DNA of 64,000 nucleotides from assembly GCA_016932095.1 (NCBI GenBank), contig JAFGDN010000074.1, positions 1-64,000 on the forward strand, given 5' to 3'. A program made the translations under genes and the position numbers. This document shows, in pieces, positions 25,713 to 43,890 of the stretch. This DNA is from Sedimentisphaerales bacterium (GTDB lineage: Bacteria > Planctomycetota > Phycisphaerae > Sedimentisphaerales > Anaerobacaceae). Below the pieces are notes generated by a model that did not search any database, was not told where the DNA came from, and saw only the letters and a list, made by a program, of their open reading frames with translations. Positions within the stretch are counted from its first letter, which is position 1, and each line of letters starts with the position of its first letter.

Positions 25713-28700
25713 GTGTGTAAAAAAACTATTATTTGCTGTTTTGTGTTAATATCGGCCTTTGCAACGTTGAGTACGCCAAGCTATGCCACAATCGATGTCA
25801 ATCACTCACCTATGACAGTGGGTTGGTCTGCATTGAACGGGAGTCCACCAAAAATCATAACCTGCACTGACCCAAACGAGCTGCCAAGTTATAACGAGGA
25901 CGGCGGCGGTTCAGGTAACCTAAGGATAGCCGAGAATTTTATCGGCGGCAGAGGCGTTAGTCAGACATTCACGGTGCCGGCAAGCGACATAGGATTCTCT
26001 GTGACCGATATCGTCATCCGCGTCGGCGGAGGCGGAAGCGACACAGTCGGCCCGTACACCCTGCACCTCTACGATATCAACGACCCCAATCTGGATTCGC
26101 TTCCGGGCAGCTATACCCCCGCTACTCAAAGTTCTTACCCCGGCGTTGATTTCCTTTCAGATACTACCGGCTTTTTAGGCGATGTCGCGCTGATGGAATT
26201 TGCCGACGGAGACAACGATGAGCTCGTCACATTCACGTTCTCAGACGATGACCTGGTGGACCTCGAACCCGGTCATATGTATGCCTTTGAGATTTGGGGG
26301 CCTGAAAACTGTGTGGACTATCCGTTTTTGTGGATACGTTACGGGGTAGATAATCCATACGATCCGAATGGCGATGGATATGAGTGCCCGGCGAGCAGGG
26401 ACAACGGAGAGGGACCCGGTCCATCGAACCCCGGCAACTACCGCTCTCAGCTCAGCGGTGAGTCCCACGACACCGTAATGGCCGTCTATGGCGTCCCCTA
26501 TGACGGGAATGCCTACCATCCAACGCCGCGGAACTACGAAAAGGAGATAAGTCTGAATCCTATTTTAAGCTGGAAACCGGGAAAGTGGGTTGATGACGTC
26601 GACGGCCACCAGGTGTGGTTCAGCACGAGTTTTAACAGGGTAGCCAGACGCCTTAGCGCCGCGAATCAGGGCAGGCGGACTGACCCCAACTATACCCCTC
26701 CCGGGCCGCTCGAACTCGATACCACCTACTACTGGAGAATTGACGAGTATAACGACACCCCAACTGTACCAGTGCCGTTTCACGCCGACGACGGTAACAG
26801 CTATTGGGGAGTTGATAGTGAAGCCGGCGTCGATAAACCTACAATCTACCGGTTCACTACCTTTACCCCCCAGGCCCATGACCCGGTGCCGGCGACAGGC
26901 ACTACAACGGCTGATTTCAGCATAAAGCTGCCCGAAATTACATGGACTGCCGGCGCCTTGACAGCGGATACAAATGGACACACGGTTTACTTCGGCACAG
27001 ATCTCGACGAGGTGAACAACGCTGACACAAATACCCCCACGGTTTACAGAGGCCGGCAGACGCCTGCTTCCTATAACCTTCTCGACCTGGCCGGGGATTA
27101 CACTTTAGAAGTTGGGACAACTTACTACTGGCGCGTCGATGAAGCAAACGACAGCACCGCTGGCAGCCCGTGGAAAGGGAATATATGGTCCTTCACAATG
27201 GCTCCCTATGTTACTGTCGATGCCTTCAGCTACAGTAGCCAGACGGATATGAACTCCGCATGGAAAGCACCAACAACGAACTACTGCTTCCCTGAGTGTA
27301 CTGCCAATCCAGGCGGCACAATCACTTTGGACGCCGGTAAGATGCGGTTCGCATTCGATAACAGGGGTACAGTAGCTTGTCCGTGGTCGGAAGCCAAGAT
27401 GGATTATAATGGGACAGGAATTGACTGGACCGCCGGCGGGATTGTTAACACGCAATCACTGTCTATCAGCGTCGATGGAAATATTTTCAGCAGCACCAAC
27501 CCCGACTATGACAACTTGTACGTGGCGATAGAGGACTCTGGCGGCAACATCGGGGTTGTCTATTGCGACGACACCATCATTCAGAAAAGACAGTTCGACA
27601 GCGGTAGAATGGGCAATCAATGGAACATCGCTCTTGCTGAACTTAGAGATAATGGAACTCCTGGCCCCGTTGACCTGACGGACATTAACGCCCTGTATAT
27701 AGGAACCGGCCCGAGATGTTCATGGGGACCTCCTCCTTATACATACGGCGGGACGGGCATTATCTACGTCGATAAAATCCGGCTGTATATGCCGAGATGT
27801 CTGACACAATACGGCGGATTCAATGACCCCAACGAATTCTCAGGCGATCTGGCCGGCGGTCCTTATAATCAAGCCGGCAACTGGACGCCTGGTGACTGCA
27901 CCGTGAACTTCTTCGACCTCGATTACATGTTCTACAACTCGACTTATGACACCAAATACTGGCTCGATTCGGACGTTAACCTGACCTATCCCGGAGCGGT
28001 CCAGCCGCTCAACGATTCCAGCCACTTGACGGTCTGGTACAAGTTCGATACCGAAACCGGCACCTCCGGCACAGTGACAGCGACCGATTCTTCAGGAAAC
28101 AACAGGCACGGCACAATCGGCAATCCAAATTCAAAACTGTGGGCCAGCGACGGCGCTAGCGGTCAATGCCTTAACTTAGAGGCGGGTCTGAGGACGTGGG
28201 TAGAGGTTCCAACCTCGGCGTATCATCCCGATACGAATGGCGTAACCTTCAGCTTCTGGACTGCGTATGATATGAACTACCAGCCGACCGGAGATTACGC
28301 GGCGACTTGGGCTTCAGTGTTCACGATGCACACAAAGACCCCGGCGGAAGCCAATGCGAACAACAGTAACGACGACAGCCAGTTGATTGAATCGCAGGTT
28401 CCGACGCCGTGGCCGCGCAATCATGATTGGGGTCCGCAGATTAGATACGTAGATATGAGATCAAGCAGCGGCGAGAACGTTGGTCGTCCCGGCCCACAGT
28501 GGGCAAGATTAAGCGATTACGGAAAACGCTGGAACCACTATGCATTCACGTATGACGACATCAACAACATCAAGGAGATTTATGAAAACGGCGTACGTAT
28601 CGGCTTTGTTGAAGGCGACGTCAATGTGCCTTTGCCAGTGTGGCCTGCGCCTGGTTCGTTCCGACTCGCTACCCGCAGCAACAGGTACTATAACCCGGGC

Positions 28701-28940
28701 ATCGGAGCTATGGGGCCGAACTGGGGCTTCTGGCTTGGCAAGCTGGATGAGTTCAGAGTTTATAACTATGCACTGACTGAACACGAGATACAGTGGCTTG
28801 CCAAGAACGGGGCAGCGTCTCGTATTGTGCCGTTATTGGATAGTGCCAACCTCAACAGGTCCGAATCGACACAGATAATCAACTTCAGAGATTATGCAAA
28901 ACTGATGCAGCATTGGTTGGACACGGAACTGTGGCCGTAG
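25713..28940 (+). CDS. Large exported LamG-domain protein with planctomycete C-terminal motif
   Basis: A 1075-residue exported protein. It has a signal peptide ending near SYATID (residue 26), an N-terminal beta domain with Asp/Gly-rich loops (to about 260), and two FnIII-like modules. Each of these contains a variant of the phrase DGHQVWFST / NGHTVYFGTD and ends TYYWR(I/V)DE. A further beta domain follows, then a LamG/concanavalin-like lectin domain from about 775 to 1030 (LTVWYKFDTETGTSG ... KLDEFRVYNYALTEHEI). The last 25 residues (IINFRDYAKLMQHWL) are the planctomycete terminal motif related to dockerin. The start is GTG with GGAGG upstream. Polysaccharide binding is likely, and no catalytic domain is seen. 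Confidence 0.85.
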   Translation: MCKKTIICCFVLISAFATLSTPSYATIDVNHSPMTVGWSALNGSPPKIITCTDPNELPSYNEDGGGSGNLRIAENFIGGRGVSQTFTVPASDIGFSVTDIVIRVGGGGSDTVGPYTLHLYDINDPNLDSLPGSYTPATQSSYPGVDFLSDTTGFLGDVALMEFADGDNDELVTFTFSDDDLVDLEPGHMYAFEIWGPENCVDYPFLWIRYGVDNPYDPNGDGYECPASRDNGEGPGPSNPGNYRSQLSGESHDTVMAVYGVPYDGNAYHPTPRNYEKEISLNPILSWKPGKWVDDVDGHQVWFSTSFNRVARRLSAANQGRRTDPNYTPPGPLELDTTYYWRIDEYNDTPTVPVPFHADDGNSYWGVDSEAGVDKPTIYRFTTFTPQAHDPVPATGTTTADFSIKLPEITWTAGALTADTNGHTVYFGTDLDEVNNADTNTPTVYRGRQTPASYNLLDLAGDYTLEVGTTYYWRVDEANDSTAGSPWKGNIWSFTMAPYVTVDAFSYSSQTDMNSAWKAPTTNYCFPECTANPGGTITLDAGKMRFAFDNRGTVACPWSEAKMDYNGTGIDWTAGGIVNTQSLSISVDGNIFSSTNPDYDNLYVAIEDSGGNIGVVYCDDTIIQKRQFDSGRMGNQWNIALAELRDNGTPGPVDLTDINALYIGTGPRCSWGPPPYTYGGTGIIYVDKIRLYMPRCLTQYGGFNDPNEFSGDLAGGPYNQAGNWTPGDCTVNFFDLDYMFYNSTYDTKYWLDSDVNLTYPGAVQPLNDSSHLTVWYKFDTETGTSGTVTATDSSGNNRHGTIGNPNSKLWASDGASGQCLNLEAGLRTWVEVPTSAYHPDTNGVTFSFWTAYDMNYQPTGDYAATWASVFTMHTKTPAEANANNSNDDSQLIESQVPTPWPRNHDWGPQIRYVDMRSSSGENVGRPGPQWARLSDYGKRWNHYAFTYDDINNIKEIYENGVRIGFVEGDVNVPLPVWPAPGSFRLATRSNRYYNPGIGAMGPNWGFWLGKLDEFRVYNYALTEHEIQWLAKNGAASRIVPLLDSANLNRSESTQIINFRDYAKLMQHWLDTELWP

Positions 28941-28964
28941 TATAAGATATTAAGTTAAATTTTC

Positions 28965-29005
28965 GGGGTCTGCGTGGCCGACGGGTCAAGCAGACCCCGT
29001 TTTTT
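28965..29005 (+). terminator. Rho-independent terminator
   Basis: ggggtctgc (28965-28973) pairs with gcagacccc (28990-28998), followed by g and six Ts. It separates the LamG gene from the riboswitch-led locus. Confidence 0.9.
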
Positions 29006-29090
29006 AAACGTAAAAATTTTTATTTTTTTGTTGCAATGCGAGAAGAATAAAGGTAAAAAGAAGGTGCTCTTTGAGAATATAATAAAACGA

Positions 29091-29325
29091 TTACAGGTCC
29101 CGGCTTATGTAGCCGGGATAATTTAAACGGGAACACGGTTAGAAGCCGTGACGGACCCGCCGCTGTAAGCGTCTGTTTCGCCCTGAACCAGAAACGGTTC
29201 GGGGTGGAAATCCGAAAGGCATTAGTTCCACTGTTCGGCGTCAGTTTTGTTATGGAAAGCAAAACGACGCGAAACGGGAAGGCGGCTTTTCGGTAAGGCG
29301 CAAGTCAGAAAACCTGCCTGTAGTC
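29091..29325 (+). promoter_or_regulatory. Cobalamin (B12) riboswitch
   Basis: Aptamer hallmarks appear in order: the P2-like stem tcccggc/gccggga, then gggaacacggttagaagccg, gacggacccgccgctgtaa (the conserved GCCxCTGT block), a variable arm with a large stem, and the 3' B12 box aaggcgcaagtcag followed by acctgcc. This is the adenosylcobalamin-type riboswitch consensus. A tataat at 29078-29083 just upstream may be the -10. It lies on the plus strand before the DUF4465 gene, with an intrinsic terminator (29458-29492) between aptamer and gene. Confidence 0.93.
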
Positions 29326-29370
29326 AGCTAATTGTGAATGGAGTTCTCGCGGAAAGGAACCCTTCAGATT

Positions 29371-29452
29371 TTCTATTTTCAATTTTATATTTTCTATTTA
29401 CGGGAATGAGCTGAGCGGATTTTTTCTCAAATAGAAAATAGAAAATAAAAAA
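29371..29452. repeat. A/T word repeat with inverted arms
   Basis: ttttctattttcaatttt-type text on the left and aaatagaaaatagaaaat on the right are complementary. The same words recur at 50525-50612. Here they sit between riboswitch and terminator and could form a competing stem. Confidence 0.6.
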
Positions 29453-29457
29453 TGATG

Positions 29458-29492
29458 AGCCGTCGTTCCTTCGCGGGGACGACGGCTTTTTT
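29458..29492 (+). terminator. Intrinsic terminator in the riboswitch leader
   Basis: agccgtcgt (29458-29466) pairs with acgacggc (29479-29486) and is followed by six Ts. It lies about 130 bases after the B12 box and 140 bases before the first gene, so it is the likely expression platform. Confidence 0.85.
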
Positions 29493-29598
29493 ATTTTACG
29501 CGGTTTGGAATATTACGCGTGAAAGGAGGCGTAAGGAAATTTAGACGGTTAACAAAACAAATCGGTAGGAAAAAACAGAGCAAGGAGGTGAAAAAACT

Positions 29599-29703
29599 AT
29601 GAGAAAGAACGCTTTGAGACAATGGAGAAGGGCAAATGGCTTCGGAGATGGTGATGAGAGCTTTGGCAGCAGTGTTTGTATTTTTACTCTGTGGAGTGGT
29701 TAA
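29599..29703 (+). CDS. 34-residue leader ORF overlapping the DUF4465 gene out of frame
   Basis: The best ribosome site in this leader (AAGGAGGTG, ending eight bases upstream) drives the ATG at 29599, which starts a 34-codon frame (MRKNALRQWRRANG...) ending at TAA 29701-29703 inside the next gene in another frame. It could be a translated leader peptide coupled to the downstream start. Alternatively, a one-base indel near 29630 has split the true N-terminus of the DUF4465 protein. Confidence 0.35.
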   Translation: MRKNALRQWRRANGFGDGDESFGSSVCIFTLWSG

Positions 29704-30421
29704 AGCCGAAGGAATAGCGGATTTTGAGGATTTGAGTTTGGAAACACAATCGTACTGGAACGGCTCGGACGGCTCAGGCGGATTCGCCAGCGGCAGGGCG
29801 TGGTTTTACAACCACTACAATACCACGTATGGCTCGTGGGCGGGATTTGCGTATTCGAACATAAGCGATTCCTCGGCGACGGGCTGGACGAGCCAGTACA
29901 ACGCGATAACAGGCGGCGGGCAGGGCGGCAGCACAAACTACGCGGTTGGATACGGATATGAAGATGAAATGCAGCCGCCGACGATGATCCTGGAGGAGCC
30001 GACGCTTGTAAGCGGGCTCTACGTGACCAATAACAACTACGCGTATTACTCGATGCGTGACGGGGATATGTTCGCCAAGAAATTCGGCGGCTCGACGGGC
30101 GGCGACCCGGACTGGTTCCTGCTGACAATGACGGGCAAAGATGAGCTGGGCGAGATTACAGGAAGCGTAGATTTTTACCTGGCGGATTTCCGTTTCGCAG
30201 ATAATCAAATGGATTACATCGTCAATGACTGGCGGTTCGCGGATTTAAGCCCGCTGGGGGTGGTCAAGAGCGTGGAGTTCTGCTTAAGCTCGAGTGATAT
30301 GGGAACCTGGGGTATGAACACACCCGGGTATTTTGTAATCGATATCGTTGTGCCTGAGCCGGCAACATTGGTATTTATGGGCTTCGGAGTGCTGGGTGTT
30401 TTAAGACGTTGTAAAAGATAA
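29636..30421 (+). CDS. DUF4465 PEP-CTERM protein under B12 riboswitch
   Basis: A 261-residue exported protein. A signal peptide (MRALAAVFVFLLCGVVKA) is followed by a beta-rich DUF4465 domain (FEDLSLETQSYWNGSDGSGGF ... WAGFAYSN ... VSGLYVTNNNYAYYSM ... VDFYLADFR). A PEP-CTERM tail follows: VPEPATL, a hydrophobic helix and RRCKR. DUF4465 genes elsewhere also occur under cobalamin riboswitches, suggesting a surface role in corrinoid handling. This is context-based, not shown. Possible starts are 29636 (GGAGAAGGG upstream), 29648 and 29654. It is the first gene of a nine-gene same-strand run. Confidence 0.85.
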   Translation: MASEMVMRALAAVFVFLLCGVVKAEGIADFEDLSLETQSYWNGSDGSGGFASGRAWFYNHYNTTYGSWAGFAYSNISDSSATGWTSQYNAITGGGQGGSTNYAVGYGYEDEMQPPTMILEEPTLVSGLYVTNNNYAYYSMRDGDMFAKKFGGSTGGDPDWFLLTMTGKDELGEITGSVDFYLADFRFADNQMDYIVNDWRFADLSPLGVVKSVEFCLSSSDMGTWGMNTPGYFVIDIVVPEPATLVFMGFGVLGVLRRCKR

Positions 30422-30468
30422 TCGATGAACGACGGCGTTCATTGATTGTCGTGAGGTTTCGGCGAGGG

Positions 30469-31566
30469 ATGATGAAAAGCATAAGGGCGGTGATATTGTT
30501 TATTGGAGTGCTGGGTTCAAGCCGGATAGTGGGAGCAGGGCCGTATAATGAGCCGGGGGTAAGCGGATACGTCGGTTCGGACGGCAAATACGCAAGTCCG
30601 GGAGAGCCGAACGCGGTAATAAACCCGATATTCCGCGGCTGGGCAACATCCGTTGCGAGCTACGAGCCGACGCCGCAATATATGCGGCCGTGGTGGGCGT
30701 ACCCTACGAAGGCATTAGGTCCGACGATGAGCGATACAGATGAAGTATATACGGTTAGCTTAGGCGACCTGTATCAGGAAGATATTGACGCCGGAGTGCC
30801 AACCGGACGTATAACTTTATCTTTCAGCGAAACAATACAAAATCAAAAAGGGTATGACTTTGTTGTTTTCGAAAATGGATTTCGTGTTTCGGAAAATGAG
30901 TGTTACGGTGAACTCGGTTATGTAGAGGTCTCGACCAACGACGTAGATTTTGCGCGATTCCCTGCAGTTGCTTTAATGACGCCCGCCCTTGACCCAAACA
31001 TGCAATGGTACTATTTCTTTAGCATCACTGACGTATATAATCTTGCCGGAAAACATCCGAATAACGGCAATGAGGAGTTGATAGGTGAGTTTACAGGAAC
31101 GCCTTTCGACCTTGACGATATTAAAAATGACCCGAACGTGCTAAGCGGCCTCGTTGACATCAACAACATTACGTATGTTCGCATAATCGACATACCGGGA
31201 AGCGGAGATTTTAACGACGAAGGGCAAAAACATATAGACCCCTGTACCTGGCCCGACTGGGATTACTATGACGCAAACCACCCGATATATGACGCCTGGC
31301 CAACATACGAATCGGGAGGGCTGGATTTGGAGGCCATAGGCGTGCTGCATCCGCAACAGTATCGCGGAGACATCAACTTAGACGGGATAGTCAACTACGA
31401 GGATTTTGTGATTTTTGCCAACGCCTGGCGAAGTCAGTTCGGACAGGCCGCCTGGTTTTCACGGTGCGACATAAACAGCCCCAAGGATATGGTGGTGGAT
31501 TTTCTGGATTTTGCGGTATTCGCGGAGGAGTGGCTGATGATAGAGCAATGGAGAATAAACCAGTGA
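30469..31566 (+). CDS. Exported surface protein with dockerin-like C-terminus
   Basis: A 365-residue exported protein. The signal peptide is followed by a beta domain with GYDFVVFENGFRV and LGYVEVSTNDVDFARFP. This pattern is seen in cell surface proteins of B12-regulated loci in Bacteroidetes and planctomycetes (recalled, not searched). The C-terminus has two dockerin-like calcium loops: GDINLDGIVNYEDFVIFANAW and CDINSPKDMVVDFLDFAVFAEEWL. The ATG at 30469 has GAGG upstream; an open TTG frame begins at 30442. It is 47 bases after the DUF4465 gene. Confidence 0.82.
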   Translation: MMKSIRAVILFIGVLGSSRIVGAGPYNEPGVSGYVGSDGKYASPGEPNAVINPIFRGWATSVASYEPTPQYMRPWWAYPTKALGPTMSDTDEVYTVSLGDLYQEDIDAGVPTGRITLSFSETIQNQKGYDFVVFENGFRVSENECYGELGYVEVSTNDVDFARFPAVALMTPALDPNMQWYYFFSITDVYNLAGKHPNNGNEELIGEFTGTPFDLDDIKNDPNVLSGLVDINNITYVRIIDIPGSGDFNDEGQKHIDPCTWPDWDYYDANHPIYDAWPTYESGGLDLEAIGVLHPQQYRGDINLDGIVNYEDFVIFANAWRSQFGQAAWFSRCDINSPKDMVVDFLDFAVFAEEWLMIEQWRINQ

Positions 31567-31613
31567 TTGAACGGTTGGTTTAGAAAACGCTTTATCATTA
31601 AGGAGAACTAAAA

Positions 31614-32468
31614 ATGAAGAAGGACACCAGCAACGGATTTAGCCTGGTGGAGGTGATGGTAGTCGTATCGACGGTGTCGATGGTGATGGCGGTAACGATG
31701 CCGGCGATGAATAAGGCAAGGGGGCACGCGAGGGCAATTGTGTGCCGGTCAAACCTGAGGCAGCTTGTGCTGGCCAATATAGGATATTCGAATGACAGCG
31801 GCGGATACTATGTTCCGGCAGCTCAGGACTACTGGCGGAACGCAGGTATTTTACAGGGTGGTTATCATCGTTGGCATGGCGTCAGGGATGGAAATGATGC
31901 GCCATTCGACCCGTTGAAAGGCCCTTTGGCTGAATATCTTGGAGACGGCCAGGTCAAGGAATGTCCAGAGCCGGTGATTTTCACAAAAGACCAATCCGGG
32001 ATAATCAACTTCGAAAAGGGCTGCGGGGGTTACGGGTACAATATGCAGTATCTTGGCAGCCGGCTCTGGCGAAACGGTCTTACAACATTGAGCATCTGGA
32101 GAAAAGCACATGCCGAAACAACAAACGTTGCAGAGGTCAAGATGCCTTTTGAGACGCTTATGTTCGCAGATACGGCATTCTATAAGGAATATCAGAATAA
32201 CTGGTATTTAGTCGAGTATTCGTTTGCACAGCCGCGTTATTGGGTTTTGAACGGAAATCCAGACGTTACCGGAAGGGCAATGGGCTTTCCAGTTCCGTCG
32301 ATACATTTCCGGCATTTGGGTAAAGCAAACGTCGGCTGGGCGGACGGGCATATTGAGCCAAAGCCGATGGCTAACCTCGAAGGCAAGCCGGGTTATAACG
32401 CCGCCTGCGCGAGCGTCAATATAGGGTGGTTCGAGCCGGTGGATAATTCGCTGTTCGATTTGAAATGA
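31614..32468 (+). CDS. Pseudopilin-like protein with prepilin leader and H-X9-DG motif
   Basis: A 284-residue protein with a short charged leader ending in Gly8, cut before FSLVEVMVVV. The mature Glu5 is present, then a hydrophobic helix: a classic type IV prepilin/pseudopilin N-terminus. A globular part follows, and near residue 243 HLGKANVGWADGH is the H-X9-DG processing-associated motif common in planctomycete paralogs of this family. An AAGGAG ribosome site is clear. Such proteins are numerous in planctomycetes and are probably exported by a type II-like system. Its place in a riboswitch-led run is unusual. Confidence 0.88.
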   Translation: MKKDTSNGFSLVEVMVVVSTVSMVMAVTMPAMNKARGHARAIVCRSNLRQLVLANIGYSNDSGGYYVPAAQDYWRNAGILQGGYHRWHGVRDGNDAPFDPLKGPLAEYLGDGQVKECPEPVIFTKDQSGIINFEKGCGGYGYNMQYLGSRLWRNGLTTLSIWRKAHAETTNVAEVKMPFETLMFADTAFYKEYQNNWYLVEYSFAQPRYWVLNGNPDVTGRAMGFPVPSIHFRHLGKANVGWADGHIEPKPMANLEGKPGYNAACASVNIGWFEPVDNSLFDLK

Positions 32469-32498
32469 GATGCCCATTGTGGTAAGCTGGCCGCGTTT

Positions 32499-33215
32499 AT
32501 GCGGCTGCAATTCATAGTTTGCAAGGTGATGCAGAGGGAGGCGTATTATTGCGCGGCCAGGTCGCCCAACGTCGTTGACGTTGTGGCGGTGAAGCAGGGG
32601 CTGCACAATGAGCCGGCGATTATGCGCGGGGAGGTCCAAAAGCATCTCGACGCTACAAGCGACGCCGACGGCAGGCAGTATGATGCGCAGCTCCTGGGCT
32701 ACGGGCTTTGCAGCAACGGAACCGTGGGCCTTCATTCGGAAATCCCGCTCGTTGTGCCGAGGGGGCACGACTGTGTAACGCTGCTGCTGGGGTCGAAGGA
32801 TAAATACAGGGATTATTTCGAGAGCCACAAGGGCGTTTACTGGTTTAGCCCCGGATGGATAGAGACGAATATGCAGCCGGGGAAGGAAAGATTCGAAAGG
32901 ACGCTGAATCAATACATACAGAAATACGGCAAGGACAACGCGGGATTTCTGATGGAAAGGGAGCAAAACTGGCTCAAAGAATACCGCTGGGCTACGTATA
33001 TCGACTGGGGATTTGCAAATTCGCTGACGGAAAAGGAATATACAAAACGTGCGGCTGAATACCTCGGCTGGACGTATGATTTAGTCAAGGGCGACTCGGG
33101 CTTAATGCAGCGGCTCGTCGATGGGAAATGGGACGTGAGAGAATTTTTAATAGTCAAACCAGGCCAAAAGATTATTGAAGACCTGACAAATGAGGGAATA
33201 ATAAAGGCAGAATAA
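32499..33215 (+). CDS. DUF1638 family protein
   Basis: A 238-residue soluble protein of the DUF1638 family. Recognisable segments are FIVCKVMQREAYYCAA near the N-terminus, DAQLLGYGLCSNGTVGL near residue 68 and VPRGHDCVTLLLGSK near 90, with conserved cysteines and histidine that could bind a metal. DUF1638 genes are often found near corrinoid proteins and methylamine methyltransferases, so its position downstream of a B12 riboswitch fits a corrinoid link. The biochemical function is unknown. The stop is only ten bases from the next gene. Confidence 0.88.
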   Translation: MRLQFIVCKVMQREAYYCAARSPNVVDVVAVKQGLHNEPAIMRGEVQKHLDATSDADGRQYDAQLLGYGLCSNGTVGLHSEIPLVVPRGHDCVTLLLGSKDKYRDYFESHKGVYWFSPGWIETNMQPGKERFERTLNQYIQKYGKDNAGFLMEREQNWLKEYRWATYIDWGFANSLTEKEYTKRAAEYLGWTYDLVKGDSGLMQRLVDGKWDVREFLIVKPGQKIIEDLTNEGIIKAE

Positions 33216-33225
33216 AGAATACGGA

Positions 33226-34974
33226 ATGCAGAATACAGAACACGGAATGCAGAACGCAGAACGACGGACTCTGTTTGTTTGCTTCGCATTAGCGATTGCG
33301 GTATTGGCCGCATACGAAGGAGTTCGCAAAAACAATTTTGTCAATTATGACGACAACATTTACATAACGGACAATCCCCGGGTGCAAAAGGGGCTGAACG
33401 CCGATTCGCTTAAATGGGCGCTGACGGATTCTGAAACCGGCTACTGGCATCCGCTGACGTGGCTGAGCCACATAACCGATTGTGCTGTTTTCGGAATGAA
33501 GCCGGCGGGGCATCACATGGTCAGCGTCGGTTTTCATATCGCAAACGTATTATTGCTTTTTTTGATATTGAAGAAAACAACAGGCGCGTTTTGGCCAAGC
33601 GTCTTTGTGTCGGCTGTTTTCGGGCTGCACCCTCTGGGCGTGGAGTCCGTCGCGTGGGTCGCTGAACGAAAGAACGTCCTGAGCTCCTTTTTCGCATTTC
33701 TTACGATATTGGCGTATTTGCGATATACACAAAAACCGTGCGTCGGTCGATATTTGGCGGTCGCGTTTCTTTTTGCGGCCGGACTGCTCAGCAAGCCAAT
33801 GCTGGTTACGCTGCCGTTTGGACTGATGCTGCTGGATTTTTGGCCGATATGCAGATTTTCAAACGCCAGGGGATGGCGGTGGCTTTGGGCTTCGGTCATT
33901 GACAAAACGCCGCTTCTGGTGATGTCGGCTGCGCTGAGTGCAGCGACAATAATACATACCAAAAAGGAGTCAATGTCGGGTCTCGACCTTGTGCCGATGG
34001 GCGCAAGAATGGGAAACACTGTGGCTGGGTATATCGGGTATATAGGCAAGATTTTTTACCCGGTGAATCTTTCGGTATTATACCCGATAAATTTGGACGG
34101 GCCGCCTTTGGGGCAGGCAGTTGTGTGCTTTTTAGCGCTGGCGCTCATCTCGTCGGGGGCGTTTTTGCTGAGGCGTAAACGGGGGTATTTGTTTACGGGA
34201 TGGTTCTGGTATCTGGGCACTTTAGTGCCGGTGATAGGGCTGGTTCAGGTCGGCTCACAAAGTATGGCCGACCGGTATATCTATATCCCGGGTATAGGAA
34301 TTTACATTATAGTCGCGTGGCTTACAGCAGACGCGACGGCGGGATTGCGCCTGCGGAGGGAAATTATCGCCTCAATCGGAGTATGTATTCTCGCTGTCCT
34401 GCTGATTGTCACAAGAAAGCAGGCGGGATACTGGAAAGACGGTATCACGCTTTGCAGGCGCGCCACAGCGGTAACAAAAGACAACTATATAATGCACACC
34501 AACCTCGGCTGCGCCCTGCAGGACCGGGGTTCGATTGACGAGGCGGAGGCGGAGTTCGAAAAGGCCCTTCAAATAATGCCGAATCACGCCGAAGCGAATA
34601 ACGGCTACGGGGTCATCCTTGCCCAAAAAGGGCTTTATGACGAGGCAATCGCGAGGTTCAGAAAGGCGCTATCCGGAAAAACGTTTATACCCGGCGCGCT
34701 GAATAACCTGTGCAAGGCGGGCGTCGAGGGCGGTAAATTAAACGCGGCGCTTGAAATAATCAAAGGCCTGGAGCAAAAAACTCCCGACAACGCGGAACTG
34801 TATTACAACGAGGGAATGATTTACAGGATGCTCGGAAACGACGAACAGTGCATCGCGCTGCTCGAAAAGGCGCTGGAGCTGGCCAAAAGCCGGAACAAAC
34901 TAGAGCTTGTCGCGGAGATTCAGCCGCGATTAGAGAGGTATCGACAGACAAAAAAACAGACCGATGACAAATGA
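33226..34974 (+). CDS. TMTC-like membrane glycosyltransferase with TPR C-terminus (paralog 1)
   Basis: A 582-residue protein. About ten transmembrane helices form a GT-C type N-terminal domain; the first extracytoplasmic loop has NYDDNIYITDN, the acidic motif expected to bind a lipid-linked sugar donor. From about residue 410 TPR repeats follow (NLGCALQDRGSIDEAEAEFEKAL). Architecture matches TMTC/PMT-related O-mannosyltransferases. The 5' end (33212-33265) consists of word-like repeat text, so the first dozen residues may not be native; ATG at 33247 is an alternative start. It overlaps the next paralog by 11 bases. Confidence 0.83.
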   Translation: MQNTEHGMQNAERRTLFVCFALAIAVLAAYEGVRKNNFVNYDDNIYITDNPRVQKGLNADSLKWALTDSETGYWHPLTWLSHITDCAVFGMKPAGHHMVSVGFHIANVLLLFLILKKTTGAFWPSVFVSAVFGLHPLGVESVAWVAERKNVLSSFFAFLTILAYLRYTQKPCVGRYLAVAFLFAAGLLSKPMLVTLPFGLMLLDFWPICRFSNARGWRWLWASVIDKTPLLVMSAALSAATIIHTKKESMSGLDLVPMGARMGNTVAGYIGYIGKIFYPVNLSVLYPINLDGPPLGQAVVCFLALALISSGAFLLRRKRGYLFTGWFWYLGTLVPVIGLVQVGSQSMADRYIYIPGIGIYIIVAWLTADATAGLRLRREIIASIGVCILAVLLIVTRKQAGYWKDGITLCRRATAVTKDNYIMHTNLGCALQDRGSIDEAEAEFEKALQIMPNHAEANNGYGVILAQKGLYDEAIARFRKALSGKTFIPGALNNLCKAGVEGGKLNAALEIIKGLEQKTPDNAELYYNEGMIYRMLGNDEQCIALLEKALELAKSRNKLELVAEIQPRLERYRQTKKQTDDK

Positions 34975-36772
34975 CGGAAGAAAGATATTGCTGATATGCA
35001 TCATGCTGGCGCTTGTGATATTTGCCGCATACGAGGGAGTTCGCAAAAACGACTTTGTCTATTACGACGACGATACATACGTGACTGAGAACCCCTCGGT
35101 TCAGAAGGGATTGAATCTCGAATCGATACGGTGGGCGTTCACGTCCCTGTATCAGGCCAACTGGCATCCGCTGACGTGGCTGAGCCACATAATCGATTGT
35201 GCAGTTTTCGGAATGAAGCCGGCGGGACATCACCTGGTCAGCGTCGGCTTTCATATCGCCAATACACTGCTGCTTTTGCTGATTTTGAGGAAGATGACGG
35301 GGGCGTTCTGGCCGAGCGTTTTTGTGTCGGCGGTATTCGGATTGCACCCGTTGGGCGTGGATTCCGTCGCGTGGGTTAGCCAGCGAAAGAATTTGCTGAG
35401 CGCTTTTTTCGGGATTTTAACCATCGCGGCGTATTTTCGATACGCACAAAAACCGGGGCTTCGCCGATACCTGATTGTCGTGTTTTTTTTTGCGGCCGGA
35501 TTGTCCAGCAAGCCGATGCTGGTAACACTGCCGTTTTGTTTGATGCTGCTGGATTTTTGGCCTTTAGGCAGATTCGCAAAAATCAAAGGATTGAGGTGGT
35601 TTCGGGCTTCTGTTTCTGAAAAGACGCCGCTTTTGGTTATGTCGGCGGCGTCCTGCGTGATAACGTATATTGCGCAGGCCAGGGCGGAAGCGGTGGCGTA
35701 TTTTACCCTGCTGCCTCTGGGATTGCGCGTAAGCAACGCCCTGATATCCTATGTAAATTACATCGGCAAGATTTTTTACCCGTCTTCCCTGGCCGTGCTT
35801 TATCCTTTGAACATCAGGATGCCGGCATTTTGGAAGACGGGGTCCTGCCTTTTACTGCTCGCGGCGATTTCGGTGACGGCGATTGGATTAAGACGCCGAT
35901 TCGGTTATCTGTTTACGGGATGGTTCTGGTTTCTCGGGACGCTTGTGCCCGTGATAGGGCTGATTCAGGTGGGCCTGCAGAGTATGGCCGACAGATACGT
36001 TTACTGGCCTGGAATTGGAATTTACATTATCGTCGCGTGGCTGACCGGCGATTTGCGGGAGAAATTCAGGATACCTAAGCCGGTTTTGACGATTGGCGCA
36101 ACGGCGGCGCTCGTCATCTTGTTTATGCTCACCCGGCAGCAGGTTCGATACTGGAAAAACAGTATGACGATATACGAGCGGACGCTGGCCGTAACGGAAA
36201 ATAACTATCGAATAGAAACCAATTACGGCGAGCTTCTCAGAAAAGCAGGTCGCCTCGATGAGTCGGCGGAGCATTTTAAGCGTGCGATTGCGGCTCATCC
36301 CCGCTTAGCGAGGGCATACCATAACCTCGGAATCGTGTATAGTGAGAAGGGCTTATTCGCGGAGGCGACAGCGGCGTTCGAGCGGGCTCTCGAGTTTGAG
36401 CCGAATTCCACGTCGGCGCACAATTATTACGCGATTTGCCTCGCCGAGCAAGGGGCGTATGACAAGGCAGTCGAGCATTTCAGCAGGGCGTTGACGCCGG
36501 GAAAGCATTTTTCTGGCGTTTTGAAGAATTTGTGCAACGCCGCGGTAATGGCGAAAAATCCCGGCGCGGCCATGAAAGTGATTGCGGACTGGCTGCAAAA
36601 AATTCCCGATAACGCGGATTTGTATTACCAGGCGGGGATTCTTTACGAGGACAAAGGCGACGTATCGGCTGCGATAGAGAGCTTTGAAAAGGCGCTGGAG
36701 CTGGCCGAAAGCCAGAACAGACGCGAGCTTGCCGATGAGATTAAGCGGCGATTAGAGAAATATCATAAATGA
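34964..36772 (+). CDS. TMTC-like membrane glycosyltransferase with TPR C-terminus (paralog 2)
   Basis: A 602-residue paralog of the flanking genes with the same order: GT-C membrane domain, acidic motif YYDDDTYVTEN near residue 31, shared phrases such as NWHPLTWLSHIIDC, VESVAWV-like DSVAWVSQRKN and GWFWFLGTLVPVIGLIQVG, then TPRs (HFKRAIAAHPRLARAYHNLGIVYSEKG). Protein O-glycosylation across the membrane is the likely role. It overlaps paralog 1 by 11 bases and the following methyltransferase by the four-base ATGA, so translation is coupled. Confidence 0.85.
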   Translation: MTNDGRKILLICIMLALVIFAAYEGVRKNDFVYYDDDTYVTENPSVQKGLNLESIRWAFTSLYQANWHPLTWLSHIIDCAVFGMKPAGHHLVSVGFHIANTLLLLLILRKMTGAFWPSVFVSAVFGLHPLGVDSVAWVSQRKNLLSAFFGILTIAAYFRYAQKPGLRRYLIVVFFFAAGLSSKPMLVTLPFCLMLLDFWPLGRFAKIKGLRWFRASVSEKTPLLVMSAASCVITYIAQARAEAVAYFTLLPLGLRVSNALISYVNYIGKIFYPSSLAVLYPLNIRMPAFWKTGSCLLLLAAISVTAIGLRRRFGYLFTGWFWFLGTLVPVIGLIQVGLQSMADRYVYWPGIGIYIIVAWLTGDLREKFRIPKPVLTIGATAALVILFMLTRQQVRYWKNSMTIYERTLAVTENNYRIETNYGELLRKAGRLDESAEHFKRAIAAHPRLARAYHNLGIVYSEKGLFAEATAAFERALEFEPNSTSAHNYYAICLAEQGAYDKAVEHFSRALTPGKHFSGVLKNLCNAAVMAKNPGAAMKVIADWLQKIPDNADLYYQAGILYEDKGDVSAAIESFEKALELAESQNRRELADEIKRRLEKYHK

Positions 36773-37437
36773 CTTATAAGCAATCGCTGGAACATTTTGA
36801 AGAAATTTACCGGGAAAGCTCTCCTGAAGAGATACCGTGGAACAGCCAAACACCGCCTGCGTTGCTGGTCGAGCTGCTCGAAAGCGGCAAAGTTCAGTGT
36901 GGTCGCGCCTTGGATTTGGGCTGTGGATTGGGCAATTACGTGATTTGGCTTGCGGGTCTTGGCTTTGATGTTATTGGCATAGACGGCTCGCCAACGGCGA
37001 TAAAGAAAGCGAAGCGAAACGCTAAGATGAAAAACGTGAAGTGCAGATTTTTAGTCGCTGATTTGACGGGCGACTGGCCTGATTTGCAAAAGCCGTTTGA
37101 TTTTGCTTACGACTGGGGATTGCTTCATCATATATCGCCGGAGCAGAGGCCGGGATACGTCAAGAACGTGCACAGGGCTTTGAAGCCGGGAGGGAAATAC
37201 GTTTCGGTATGTTTTAATGAAAGGGACGCAGCATTTAAGGGCACATGCAAACACAGAAAAACGAATATGGGAACGGCCGTTTATTTATCATCTGAACAGG
37301 AATTGCGCGAGCTTTTCGGGCGTTTTTTTGAAATAATTGATTTTCGCGTCCTCGAAATCGCGGGAAAGTTTATGAAGCACGTTTTTAATTACTGCTTTAT
37401 GCAAAAAAGGAAAGACCCCGATAACAGGTGCGGGTGA
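36769..37437 (+). CDS. Class I SAM-dependent methyltransferase
   Basis: A 222-residue methyltransferase. Motif I is RALDLGCGLGNYVIWLAG near residue 45, motif II ends VIGIDGSP, and a post-I DLTGDWP and DFAYDWGLLHHI motif follow. The end (FKGTCKHRKTNMGTAVYLS ... FFEIIDFRVLEI) resembles thiopurine- and TehB-like small-molecule methyltransferases. Embedded between glycosyltransferase paralogs 2 and 3 with an ATGA overlap, it may methylate the transferred sugar or the acceptor, but that is inferred from position only. Confidence 0.86.
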   Translation: MTYKQSLEHFEEIYRESSPEEIPWNSQTPPALLVELLESGKVQCGRALDLGCGLGNYVIWLAGLGFDVIGIDGSPTAIKKAKRNAKMKNVKCRFLVADLTGDWPDLQKPFDFAYDWGLLHHISPEQRPGYVKNVHRALKPGGKYVSVCFNERDAAFKGTCKHRKTNMGTAVYLSSEQELRELFGRFFEIIDFRVLEIAGKFMKHVFNYCFMQKRKDPDNRCG

Positions 37438-37462
37438 CGTAACTATAAATGATATAAACCGT

Positions 37463-39337
37463 ATGAAAACCGATAACAATAAACATTGCGAACCGCGAGG
37501 TAAAATCAGGACGGCGGCGTTATGCCTGCTGCTTGCGGCGGCGACCTTCGCGGCGTTCGAGGGGGTGAGGAACAATGATTTTGTCAATTTTGACGATGAT
37601 TTATACGTGACGAACAACCCGCACGTGCAGCAAGGATTGTATGCCGGCTCAATCGTGTGGGCGTTTACGAGCCGGGACGCGAGCAACTGGCATCCGCTGA
37701 CGTGGCTAAGCCACATAATCGACTGTGTATATTTCGGGCCTGACCCGGCGGGTCACCATTTAGTCGGTCTGGGTTTTCATATCGCCGGCGTTGTGCTTCT
37801 GTTTTTGATATTAAAGGCAATGACGGGGGCGCTGTGGCCGAGCGCCTTTGTCGCGGCGGCGTTCGGGCTGCACCCCCTGGCGGTGGAATCAGTCGCGTGG
37901 GTCGCCCAGCGAAAAAACGTTCTGAGCACGTTTTTTTGTTTTTTAACGATAGCGGCGTATGTTCGATATTCGCAAAAGCCGGGGCTTTGGCGGTATTTGA
38001 CGGTCGCGGGTTTGTTTGCGGCGGGCCTGCTTTCCAAGCCGATGCTCGTTACGCTCCCGTTTGTTCTGATTCTCCTGGACCATTGGCCTCTCAATAGAAT
38101 CCGAAATAAGAATGAAGAAACAGAAGAAAAAACTCTACATTCTAAATTCACAATTCTCAATTCATTTTACGAAAAGATTCCCCTGCTATTGATGTCTGCG
38201 GCGTCGTGCGTCGTGACGTATATGGCACAGGCACAGGGCGGCGCGGTATCGGACATCGTCAAGGTGCCTTTAATTTCACGCGCAGAGAACACGCTGGTTT
38301 CGTATATAAATTATATCGGGAAGGTTTTCTGGCCGACCTCGCTGTCGGTTTTGTACCCGTTTAACTTTAGCGAGCTGGCCGCGTGGAAAGCGGGCGCGTG
38401 CCTTTTACTGCTCGTGCTGGTTTCGTCGGCTGCAATTATTCTGAGGCGCAGGTTCGGCTGGCTGTTTACAGGATGGTTCTGGTATCTGGGAACACTTGTG
38501 CCCGTGATTGGGCTGGTCCAGATAGGGGCGCAGGGTATGGCTGACCGGTATATGTACCTGCCCGGGATTGGTATTTACATCATTGTTGCTTGGTCTGCCT
38601 ACGAGCTTGCGGGGAAGTTACGACTGCCCAAGGTCATTCCCGCCGCGGCGGGCGCGTCTGCTTTAGGCGTTCTGCTGCTTATGACGAGGGCGCAGGTCGG
38701 GCACTGGAAAGACAGCGTGTCGCTGTGTCAGTATGCGCTGGCGACGACGAAGAACAATTACATAATGCATTATAACTGCGGCGTGGCGTTCTGGACGCTG
38801 GGGCGGCTGGATGAGGCGATAGAGCAATACAGGCAGGCACTGAAAATCAATCCCGCATACGCAAAGGCGCATAACAACCTGGGCTGTGCTCTCAGGGACA
38901 AAAGACAGACGGACGAGGCGCTGGCTGAATTTGAGCGGGCGATAAAAATTGAACCCGATTACGCCGAAGCGCAGAATAATTACGCCGTTTCACTGGCCAA
39001 ACGCGGGCAGTATGAAGAAGCTATCGGTCATTTCAACGCAGCAATTAAGGCAAAGCCGTGCTACGGCGATGCCCTGAAAAACATCTGCAAGGCGGGTATT
39101 GACGGCCATAAAACCGATGAAGTCCTGGAAACGCTGCTGGCTATGCAGCAACAAACGCCTTCCTGCGCCGAACTGTATTACAGGGCCGCAACAATTTACG
39201 ACGCAAAAGGCCAGGTCGAAAAGGCGGTCGAGCAGCTCGAAAAGGGATTGACGCCGGCTGACAGGCAGGGCAACAGGGAGCTTGTCAATCTGATTAAAGC
39301 TCAACTGGAACGGTATAGCCGGCCGACGGCGAAATGA
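37463..39337 (+). CDS. TMTC-like membrane glycosyltransferase with TPR C-terminus (paralog 3)
   Basis: A 624-residue member of the tandem family with acidic motif NFDDDLYVTNN near residue 36, the GT-C membrane core and C-terminal TPRs (NCGVAFWTLGRLDEAIEQYRQAL and following). Compared with paralogs 1 and 2, the cytoplasmic loop after DHWPLNRIRNK is longer: residues about 214-236 (NEETEEKTLHSKFTILNSF) are encoded by AT-rich word-like repeat text at 38103-38170, apparently inserted in frame. It starts 25 bases after the methyltransferase gene. Confidence 0.83.
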   Translation: MKTDNNKHCEPRGKIRTAALCLLLAAATFAAFEGVRNNDFVNFDDDLYVTNNPHVQQGLYAGSIVWAFTSRDASNWHPLTWLSHIIDCVYFGPDPAGHHLVGLGFHIAGVVLLFLILKAMTGALWPSAFVAAAFGLHPLAVESVAWVAQRKNVLSTFFCFLTIAAYVRYSQKPGLWRYLTVAGLFAAGLLSKPMLVTLPFVLILLDHWPLNRIRNKNEETEEKTLHSKFTILNSFYEKIPLLLMSAASCVVTYMAQAQGGAVSDIVKVPLISRAENTLVSYINYIGKVFWPTSLSVLYPFNFSELAAWKAGACLLLLVLVSSAAIILRRRFGWLFTGWFWYLGTLVPVIGLVQIGAQGMADRYMYLPGIGIYIIVAWSAYELAGKLRLPKVIPAAAGASALGVLLLMTRAQVGHWKDSVSLCQYALATTKNNYIMHYNCGVAFWTLGRLDEAIEQYRQALKINPAYAKAHNNLGCALRDKRQTDEALAEFERAIKIEPDYAEAQNNYAVSLAKRGQYEEAIGHFNAAIKAKPCYGDALKNICKAGIDGHKTDEVLETLLAMQQQTPSCAELYYRAATIYDAKGQVEKAVEQLEKGLTPADRQGNRELVNLIKAQLERYSRPTAK

Positions 39338-39350
39338 AAGGAAACTGGAA

Positions 39351-39500
39351 ATGTGGAGCTGCTGCCATAATTGCGATGGCGGTGCGACTGTCGATAGACG
39401 CGTTCGCGGTGAAGTTGATGACGGAAACGGCGTATTTTGCTGCAACACTTGTTTGTATAATGTAAAATTCGGATTATGGAACCAAAGGTATATTTCATAA
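39351..39500 (+). CDS. Possible 49-residue zinc-ribbon micro-protein
   Basis: An ATG preceded by AAAGGA opens a 49-codon frame with CCHNC at residues 4-8 and CCNTC at 30-34, i.e. two C-x2-C knuckles 22 residues apart as in zinc ribbons. It fills the only large gap in this run and overlaps the DUF362 start by 25 bases in another frame. The paired knuckles make chance less likely, but the evidence is limited to this pattern. Confidence 0.35.
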   Translation: MWSCCHNCDGGATVDRRVRGEVDDGNGVFCCNTCLYNVKFGLWNQRYIS

Positions 39501-40555
39501 AAGCGGGCGCCGGCGAAGGCGAGAAGGTAATTTCGGACAAGGCACGCCGGCTGTTTAAGAAGGCGGGATTGAATAAGTGCTTCAAGCCGAATGACTTTAC
39601 CGCGATAAAAGTGCACGTCGGCGAGCACGGCAACACCACCTATATCAAAGCGCCCTGCTTTAAGGGACTGATTGATGAATTGATTGCATTAAAGACAAAG
39701 CCGTTTTTGACGGATACCAGCACGCTGTACCTTGGCCGAAGGCATAACGCGATTGACCACGCGCTCCTGGCCGCCGAGCACGGTTTCGACGCAAAAGGGC
39801 TGGGGATACCTTTCATACCGCCCGACGGGCTTTTCGGGACAAGCGAGACGGCTGTTCAGATTAACGGCGAACTGAATAAGGAGGTTTCTATCGCATACGA
39901 CATTGTGCGGGTGCAGTCGATTTTAGCGGTATCTCACGTAACGGGACATCTGGCGACGTGTATGGGCGCGACGCTGAAAAATCTCGGTATGGGCTGCGCA
40001 AGCAGGAAGGGCAAAATGAGACAGCACGCCTCGCTCAAGCCCAGCATCAAAAAGAGCAAATGCGTCGGCTGCGGAGAATGTTACCGGCACTGTCCTGAAG
40101 GCGCAATTACGATGAAGGATTTGAAAGCGCATATCAACCGGGACAAATGTATCGGCTGCGCGGAGTGCGTGGCGGTGTGCCGGTTCGACGCGGTCAAATA
40201 CGACTGGGGGGCGGAAAATCAGAAGCTGCAGGAAAACGTCGCAGAGCACGCAAAAGGGGTGTTAACAGGCAAGGAAGGACGGGCGGCGTTCATAAGCTTC
40301 GCAATCTCAATCACGGATGACTGTGATTGTATGAATAATACGAATATGCCGAGTATCGTGAAGGACATAGGCATTTTGGCTTCGACAGACCCGGTCGCGA
40401 TTGACCAGGCGGCGCTCGATTTGATTGAAAAGCAGGCAGGCAGACCGCTGGAGCAAATCCTGAAATATCGCAACCTCAACCCCAAGTGGCAAATCAAGCA
40501 CGCCGAAAAAATCGGCCTGGGAAACAGAAAATACGAGCTTAACGAAATCGATTAA
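39476..40555 (+). CDS. DUF362 domain protein with 2x[4Fe-4S] ferredoxin insert
   Basis: A 359-residue protein. The DUF362 core starts VYFIKAGAGEG and includes FTAIKVHVGEHGNTTYIK, LTDTSTLYLGRR and VSHVTGHLATCMGATLKNLGMGCASRKGK. Near residues 198-240 two ferredoxin motifs (CVGCGECYRHCP and CIGCAECVAVC) are inserted for two [4Fe-4S] clusters. The C-terminal part (DIGILASTDPVAIDQAALDLI) closes the DUF362 fold. An electron-transfer or iron-sulfur-dependent role is expected, with unknown substrate. A second, truncated copy of its 3' end lies at 43720-43890. Confidence 0.9.
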   Translation: MEPKVYFIKAGAGEGEKVISDKARRLFKKAGLNKCFKPNDFTAIKVHVGEHGNTTYIKAPCFKGLIDELIALKTKPFLTDTSTLYLGRRHNAIDHALLAAEHGFDAKGLGIPFIPPDGLFGTSETAVQINGELNKEVSIAYDIVRVQSILAVSHVTGHLATCMGATLKNLGMGCASRKGKMRQHASLKPSIKKSKCVGCGECYRHCPEGAITMKDLKAHINRDKCIGCAECVAVCRFDAVKYDWGAENQKLQENVAEHAKGVLTGKEGRAAFISFAISITDDCDCMNNTNMPSIVKDIGILASTDPVAIDQAALDLIEKQAGRPLEQILKYRNLNPKWQIKHAEKIGLGNRKYELNEID

Positions 40556-40710
40556 TCATTTTTTTCCGTTGCCATTTGCTTTACAATACTATCGTGAATC
40601 ATGGACTTTTTCAACAGTCCCACTGTCTCTATTTGTTCCCCTGAGTATTACAGGATAAAATTTAACCTAATGCCGTTTCTAAAAGATAGTATAGTTTTTT
40701 CCCCTTTAAC

Positions 40711-42099
40711 CTATTTGTCTGCATTTATGATTTCTTGTTTTGCGATTTTGGTCAAGTGTTCAGCCACTGCGTGGAAAGCCGGCAGCGAGGTGGGATCTAT
40801 CTTTTGGTTGATTGCCAAGGGAAAAGACGCAAAACGGGCAATGACCATTTCGGCGGTCGGATCGACATAGATTGTTTGCCCGTGCACGCCGCGTGCGGCG
40901 AAAGCGCCGTGCTTGTTGTGATATATCCACCACATTGACCGGTAACTTCCTCCGGGAAGTGTTGTGTAACCTGCTTTTGCGAAAGCCCCTTTGTCGCCGC
41001 CCTTACGAATGTTTTCTACGACGCTCGCCGGGAACAGGCGGGTACCGTTAATTACACCTTCGCCGAGCATCAGTTGTCCAATCCTGGCCATATCACGCAG
41101 ACCTGCGCTCAATCCGCCTCCGGCAAAAGGCGTGCCCAGGGCATCCACCGTAATATAGGCATCCTGCTCTGCCCCCATGCGTTTCCATATCCGTTCCGAC
41201 AATAGCTCAGCTACTGATTTACCGGACACTCTGGACAGTATCCAGCCAAGGGCGTCGCTATTGACGGTCTTGTAACCGAATGCCTCTCCGTGCTGACCTT
41301 TCTGACGGACAGTCTGCAGATACTGATAATAACCGACGGGACCCTTATAGTTTGAGGGCTTGGGCAACGGATTAGCCGCGGCGCTGTATTGCCAGATGTG
41401 CGCATTCGGATCGGCATAATCCTCGCTGAAATCAAGCCCGGTTGTCATGTCCATGACCTGACGTACGGTTGCGTTGCCGAAAGCACTTCTTTCCAGTTCC
41501 GGGATTATCGAAGAAACTATCACTTTTTCGTCCAGCTTGCCTTCAGCTATAAGAATCTCGGCAAGCAGACCGGTCAGAGATTTGGTCATTGACATCGCGG
41601 CATGCTGGCCCTGGTCATTGAGACAGCCTGAATACCGTTCATACACAATTCGTCCTTTGTGCAGCACGATGATACCATCGGTATAGTTTGCCTGGAGCGA
41701 TTCTTCCCAGGTCATTTGTTCACCGCTGCCTAACGGCGTAAACCGGATTGTGTCGATCTTGCTGTCAAGAGTATACCGAAAAGGAATCGGTGCGCCGATG
41801 CCCCGGCTGACCTGTTTCGTCGGCAGCAACTCACGGATATGGCAGACCGTCCATCGAAGCTTCGGAAAACTGAAGAAATCCGAATCCGGATGACCTACAA
41901 CTTTTTCAGGGGGAGGCGGAAAGCCCTGCATCCATCCGAGCCGGTCAGGATCAGATTCGGATGCCGTCAGTTGACCGGCTTTTTTCTCCAATACGGCGTT
42001 CTTGTCTGCAGCGATCGCATAGGGCAGCGTGCCCAGGAACACAAAGATGAACAAACACCTTTTCAAGTAACTTTTCACATCAGTAATTGAATATGACAT
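40711..42099 (-). CDS. Exported serine hydrolase of the class C beta-lactamase fold
   Basis: A 462-residue exported protein with a signal peptide (LFIFVFLGTLPYAIAA). The SxxK nucleophile motif is SMTK at residues 170-173. The Y-x-N-like GYKTVNSDALG follows, and HGQTIYVDP near the C-terminus fits the third motif. The overall pattern is close to 6-aminohexanoate-dimer hydrolase/beta-lactamase relatives, so amide or ester hydrolysis of small substrates is likely. The start at 42099 has GGAGG eight bases upstream and overlaps the porin stop by 20 bases; the frame to 42180 is porin antisense frame. It is co-transcribed with the porin. Confidence 0.85.
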   Translation of the reverse strand: MSYSITDVKSYLKRCLFIFVFLGTLPYAIAADKNAVLEKKAGQLTASESDPDRLGWMQGFPPPPEKVVGHPDSDFFSFPKLRWTVCHIRELLPTKQVSRGIGAPIPFRYTLDSKIDTIRFTPLGSGEQMTWEESLQANYTDGIIVLHKGRIVYERYSGCLNDQGQHAAMSMTKSLTGLLAEILIAEGKLDEKVIVSSIIPELERSAFGNATVRQVMDMTTGLDFSEDYADPNAHIWQYSAAANPLPKPSNYKGPVGYYQYLQTVRQKGQHGEAFGYKTVNSDALGWILSRVSGKSVAELLSERIWKRMGAEQDAYITVDALGTPFAGGGLSAGLRDMARIGQLMLGEGVINGTRLFPASVVENIRKGGDKGAFAKAGYTTLPGGSYRSMWWIYHNKHGAFAARGVHGQTIYVDPTAEMVIARFASFPLAINQKIDPTSLPAFHAVAEHLTKIAKQEIINADK

Positions 42100-43533: not shown

Positions 43534-43719
43534 TTTATTTTTCAATATAATATGACACCTGCCCTGAAAAAGCCAATTTTACTTTTGACTGGAAGTTTTT
43601 TCAGCCATATACATTTACAAAAAGCGAATCTTGGCGGTTGAATATTCGGAGTTTTTTGGCCCCCCGAAAACTGTACAATTGCGGAATAGAGGGTATCCGA
43701 TAAGATTGGGCGATTTAAG

Positions 43720-43890
43720 ATTGACCAGGCGGCTCTGGATTTGATTGAAAAGCAGGCAGGCAGACCGCTGGAGCAAATCTTAAAATACCGCAACCTCAAC
43801 CCCAAGTGGCAAATCAAGCACGCCGAAAAAATCGGCCTGGGCAGCAGAAAATACGAGCTTGTTACAATCGGTAAATCGCTGCTTTTTTGA
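43720..43890 (+). pseudogene. 3' remnant of a second DUF362 gene
   Basis: Residues IDQAALDLIEKQAGRPLEQI onward match the C-terminal 47 residues of the intact DUF362 protein, then diverge to VTIGKSLLF and stop at TGA 43888-43890. Nucleotide differences from the intact copy are almost all synonymous (GCG/GCT, CTC/CTG, CTG/TTA, TAT/TAC), with one N/S change. It was therefore a separate functional paralog before being truncated, not a recent duplicate. There is no start or upstream portion. The break point is at about 43719. Confidence 0.88.

Follow-up and report, generated by a model that had tools for sequence, protein, structure and literature searches.

The locus described here lies in a stretch of 64,000 nucleotides (nt; the window, to whose positions all coordinates refer) of contig JAFGDN010000074.1 from a Sedimentisphaerales bacterium of the Planctomycetota (assembly GCA_016932095.1). 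It consists of a cobalamin riboswitch, an intrinsic terminator and nine plus-strand genes (29636–40555) with gaps of at most 138 nt and overlaps in two pairs, and our subject is the riboswitch together with the first three genes, whose products are predicted to capture cobamides at the cell surface. A preliminary description of the sequence had claimed a complete B12 aptamer followed by an intrinsic terminator, nine tightly spaced genes with overlaps, no internal terminator and no B12 transporter, and on all these points our analysis of the locus agrees with it. Its gene identities were likewise borne out: a DUF4465 protein with PEP-CTERM, a protein with a dockerin tail, a protein with a prepilin motif, DUF1638, three TPR/PMT-like membrane proteins, a methyltransferase and a DUF362 protein with 4Fe-4S. 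Terminator-like sites between 28500 and 41500 number 18, against 14.8 ± 4.6 in shuffled sequences, and since they stand at chance level and no strong one lies within the genes, read-through and hence co-transcription of all nine genes is possible.

The aptamer (RF00174; 29078–29335, plus strand, cmscan) scores 69.3 bits (gathering score 31.5; E 5e-15), is complete over model positions 1–189 and is the single cobalamin riboswitch of the 2.95 Mb genome. Directly 3' of it stands a hairpin (GUUCUCGCGG...GGAAC; 29340–29370, plus strand) that by its position may be P13/L13, the partner in the kissing loop; its motif, gttctcgcg..ggaac, recurs at this place in most of 30 related loci. The terminator of the expression platform (29457–29488, plus strand) was located by a hairpin scan of 28500–41500, in which it is the strongest site, with 14 pairs followed by a T tract, TTTTATTTTA; of 40 related loci, 32 have a terminator behind the aptamer and ahead of the first gene, whereas shuffled sequences gave an expectation of 0.25. 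An antiterminator pairing of the post-aptamer hairpin with a terminator arm was considered and rejected, as it beat the shuffles in only 5 of 30 loci. In relatives, second cobalamin riboswitches head NrdD, MetE and CobU/CobT, which form part of the classical B12 regulon, the genes that B12 switches off. Because the other riboswitches of the relatives lead such genes, and because the terminator is conserved, the riboswitch of the locus is most likely an OFF switch. Such second riboswitches were seen at L144, L149, L150 and L169; NrdD is led, with MetE two genes on at L144, and CobU/CobT at L169. Gene 1 is overlapped at its start, in a different frame, by a 34-codon open reading frame (ORF; 29599–29703) that has a strong GGAGGT site and is possibly a leader peptide, or due to chance.

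Gene 1 (29636–30421, plus strand) encodes a predicted B12-binding protein of the DUF4465 (BtuJ) family with a signal peptide and PEP-CTERM. It matches PF14717 with 184 bits against a cutoff of 25 (E 4e-54), and six solved DUF4465 chains match it, including PDB 9hmu, 9fct and 9i2l. Tyr146, Asn241, Thr242 and Tyr245 of BtuJ1, the hydrogen-bonding contacts common to BtuJ1 and BtuJ2 (PMC12751083), align with Tyr135, Asn228, Thr229 and Tyr232 of gene 1; the HI-loop N-T-P-x-Y and the DE-loop Tyr are both kept, MNTPGY corresponding to Tyr245 of BtuJ1 and VTNNNY to Tyr146. B12 binding has been published for eight divergent DUF4465 members, a protein of the planctomycete Mucisphaera calidilacus among them (PMC13398666), and going by family and contact residues the gene 1 protein is predicted to bind B12 too.

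Gene 2 (30442–31566, plus strand; likely start ATG 30469/30472) encodes a surface protein that resembles the BtuH domain, with a weak dockerin match at its C-terminal end. Its main domain matched no Pfam family. In a structural comparison with VIA-align, the AlphaFold (AF2) model (predicted local distance difference test, pLDDT, 94) aligned best with 7biz_B (Z 11.7, root mean square deviation 3.4, 169 residues aligned) and 8blw_B (Z 11.6), the next unrelated fold following at Z 8.9. The former is BtuH2 with B12 (PMC8941943) and the latter a BtuG1 chain that carries a BtuH domain (PMC10404256). The gene 2 sequence profile matches 8blw within the H-domain (E 2.4e-4), and 8blw is the sole PDB sequence match of the gene 2 domain profile (E 0.009); 7biz was not matched by the sequence profile. 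From these structural matches, the 8blw profile match and the riboswitch loci of Bacteroidota described below, we conclude that gene 2 encodes a BtuH-like protein, which may bind B12 as well.

Gene 3 (31614–32468, plus strand) encodes a dedicated type IV pilin-like protein with a GFSLVE prepilin motif and H-X9-DG; it scores 23.7 with N_methyl (cutoff 21.2), and its AF2 model has a pLDDT of 93. The best solved match of its head is the pilin PilA4 (Z 5.4), and the PDB comparison gave no clear fold apart from pilin. Eight other proteins of the genome match gene 3, with the N-terminal helix alone in common, and about 80 full-length relatives occur at the loci that were fetched, mostly behind gene 2.

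The three genes form a unit across a class-wide sample of 397 genomes, in which DUF4465 is present in 63 and 58 DUF4465 loci were analysed. All 51 loci with at least 500 nt upstream carry the riboswitch (counting L093, where the ORF call extends into the aptamer). Gene 2 adjoins DUF4465 or is fused to it in 50 of the 58 by a strict call, with eight fusions in one ORF; the eight misses comprise two contig ends and six loci with a weaker or separately found homologue. Gene 3 is present in 45 of the 58, and seven of the remaining loci run out at a contig edge or close to one. The recurring order is riboswitch, terminator, gene 1 or a substitute of about 183 aa, gene 2 and gene 3. Loci without DUF4465 retain a gene-2-like gene (hhalign 98.7%) and gene 3 behind the riboswitch, and there a PEP-CTERM protein of about 183 aa (L134:1813–2361, L137, L142, L164, L166 and others) usually takes the place of DUF4465 directly behind the riboswitch. 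This protein mostly has no Pfam or NCBIfam match, and a PDB sequence search with it returned nothing useful; descent from DUF4465 was rejected, since the hhalign alignment is limited to the PEP-CTERM tail. It is a candidate for a new cobamide-binding family. The trio is followed by BtuF-BtuD-BtuC in L067, L164 and L166, and by these together with CobT in L159; BtuF and BtuD from the same clusters occur at L077 and L078. In Bacteroidota, a TonB-dependent receptor, DUF4465, the gene 2 family with a type IX secretion system tail and DUF5074/BtuG stand together behind a cobalamin riboswitch, the receptor ahead and the gene 2 family between DUF4465 and DUF5074/BtuG. A metagenome-assembled genome of Rhodopirellula carries, behind a cobalamin riboswitch, a 2003-aa ORF in which a gene-2 domain is combined with a high-scoring match to DUF4465 (L034:6301–12312).

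The genome encodes BtuF-BtuC-BtuD outside the locus, behind mutL. CbiC was not found in it, and all genomes of the family that were searched (42/42) lack it, so the family probably depends on cobamide from outside. Gene calls and Pfam placed no btuB in the locus; the genome has five TonB receptors (Plug proteins), each of which falls well short of the BtuB equivalog cutoffs, and no BtuB was confirmed. Three other single-contig genomes of the family (G342, G351 and G363, estimated to be 87–90% complete), in which no TonB plug domain was found, have the cassette of DUF4465 and gene 2, and two of them gene 3.

Behind the trio lie gene 4 (DUF1638, PF07796; 32499–33215, plus strand), a neighbour that is possibly co-transcribed in the genus, and genes 5–9 (33226–40555, plus strand; the three TPR/PMT-like membrane proteins, the methyltransferase and the DUF362-ferredoxin protein), which fall outside the conserved unit. 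The preliminary description had joined all nine in one corrinoid-responsive, glycosylated surface system, in which the TMTC-like enzymes and the methyltransferase would modify surface proteins. The tight spacing and the lack of a strong internal terminator would suit such a system, as would the arrangement in the genus mates G194 and G280 (L044, L134), where gene 3 is followed by DUF1638 and, further along that strand, by TMTC-like genes. Outside the genus, though, DUF1638, the methyltransferase and DUF362 are absent or lie on the strand opposite to the trio (L046, L048, L061, L063), surrounded by PGM, Mntp and other housekeeping genes, and TMTC-like genes are unlinked to the trio. Only within the genus, then, do genes 4–9 come after the trio with the same orientation, the claimed nine-gene linkage does not extend beyond it, and a glycosylation part of the system is left unsupported; we regard the nine-gene system as very improbable, and the six genes after the trio, those for sugar transfer included, are probably mere neighbours. 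A ComF-like gene, frequent after gene 3, was set aside as a housekeeping neighbour with no relation to B12. Further out, a 159-nt direct repeat (40399–40557 and 43719–43877, 91% identical) covers the 3' end of the DUF362 gene and flanks two minus-strand genes (a beta-lactamase fold and an Alginate_exp porin-like protein), as if these had been inserted or the DUF362 end duplicated.

Two narrower alternatives bear on the trio itself. Gene 2 might encode a generic sugar-binding surface protein of the discoidin/CBM32-like type, whose likeness to BtuH is confined to the fold: many discoidin/CBM32 structures reach Z 7–9 against its model, its main domain lacks a Pfam family, and a weakly related Leptospira lipoprotein, LIC_13355, has reportedly been studied for binding activities. 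Yet 7biz and 8blw exceed every other jellyroll by about 3 in Z, no other PDB sequence than 8blw matches the domain profile, and the linkage of gene 2 to the cobalamin riboswitch and DUF4465, fusions included, is constant in several phyla, which makes a generic sugar binder distinctly unlikely. Gene 3, for its part, could be a pseudopilin that helps to bring proteins 1 and 2 to the surface through a type II-like secretion system, with no fibre and with genes 1–3 still regulated by B12. GspG is among its profile matches, and proteins 1 and 2 could act as surface binders only after leaving the periplasm; against this, pseudopilins are usually encoded with the secretion machinery and shared among substrates, whereas gene 3 is dedicated to the locus, and its head is poorly matched and larger than those of known pseudopilins. 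We consider export by a pseudopilin rather unlikely.

Taking these lines together, we propose, with a probability of about 0.82, that genes 1–3 make up an operon for cobamide capture at the cell surface which B12 represses; the proposal draws on the aptamer, the conserved terminator, the protein families and folds, the gene order, the linkage of btuFDC and cobT in relatives and the lack of CbiC, all computed here. When cobamide is scarce, transcription would pass the terminator and the products of genes 1–3 would be made. The DUF4465 (BtuJ-type) PEP-CTERM protein and the dockerin-tailed BtuH-like protein would retain cobamide on the cell surface or outside it, and the gene 3 protein would most likely be built into, or cooperate with, a pilus-like structure serving to display or retrieve the binders. 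Cobamide that reaches the periplasm would be taken up by BtuFCD, encoded away from the locus. When cobamide is plentiful, the aptamer would bind it, the terminator would form and the operon would be off. The claim of a corrinoid-responsive surface system for B12 capture thus has good support in the widely conserved genes 1–3 and lacks it for the nine-gene extent.

Several observations weigh against this proposal. No outer-membrane importer was identified. Foldseek alone returned nothing under E 0.001 for gene 2, so that its BtuH match comes from VIA-align together with the weak 8blw profile match, which covers about 90 residues, part of the domain. The 3' end of the conserved unit is not fixed, because most loci have a same-strand gene close behind gene 3: such a gene follows in 53 of 79 loci and a terminator stands there in 5 of 79, about one-third of loci having an opposite-strand gene instead. 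The passenger genes, which differ between lineages, may be co-transcribed.

A further step would be that the lineage captures B12 by a dedicated, riboswitch-controlled pilus-like fibre bearing BtuJ/BtuH-type binders and brings it across the outer membrane without BtuB. Because planctomycete pili-like fibres are reported to bind dextran (PMC5394234), a capture fibre is conceivable, though we consider the full scheme unlikely. If it were true, the DUF4465 replacement of about 183 aa in sister loci would be a further undescribed B12-binding family.

The proposed operon would extend BtuJ/BtuH scavenging, known from gut Bacteroides, to planctomycetes in which a marker of cobamide synthesis is missing. 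It would give a testable function in several phyla to a surface family (gene 2) that has no Pfam model, and place a pilin-like protein in a B12-controlled operon; the passage of a large cofactor through the outer membrane becomes directly testable in such cells. The preliminary description had called the system undescribed in planctomycetes. DUF4465 is already known as a B12-binding family, the planctomycete member included, so this part of its inference was right and not new; the literature searched yielded neither the dedicated pilin nor a BtuH-like partner in planctomycetes, and none of its papers linked planctomycetes to BtuH or to cobalamin riboswitches.

Compared with known systems, the riboswitch is an ordinary member of RF00174 with a terminator platform, having the full aptamer and a terminator downstream, and the genes that it leads are its sole unusual trait. 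Gene 1 shares with BtuJ/DUF4465 (IPR027828; Bacteroides thetaiotaomicron and others) its Pfam family, PDB matches and contact residues as well as riboswitch control, and PEP-CTERM-type sorting has already been noted for family members (PMC12751083, PMC13398666); it differs in standing at a locus without btuB, partnered by a BtuH-like protein and a pilin. Gene 2 has the BtuH/BtuG1 H-domain as its best solved fold match, occurs at the same kind of loci and is likewise secreted, but with 19–21% identity over about 170 residues and with a dockerin in place of the PKD or beta-propeller partner. Gene 3 has the prepilin motif, long N-terminal helix and H-X9-DG of type IV pilins and pseudopilins (TIGR04294, N_methyl); unlike them it is dedicated to cobalamin riboswitch loci, where alone it is conserved over its full length. 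The trio is thus a variant of the Bacteroides BtuJ/BtuH theme, and its surprising part is that a pilin-like protein has become a fixture of a B12 operon.

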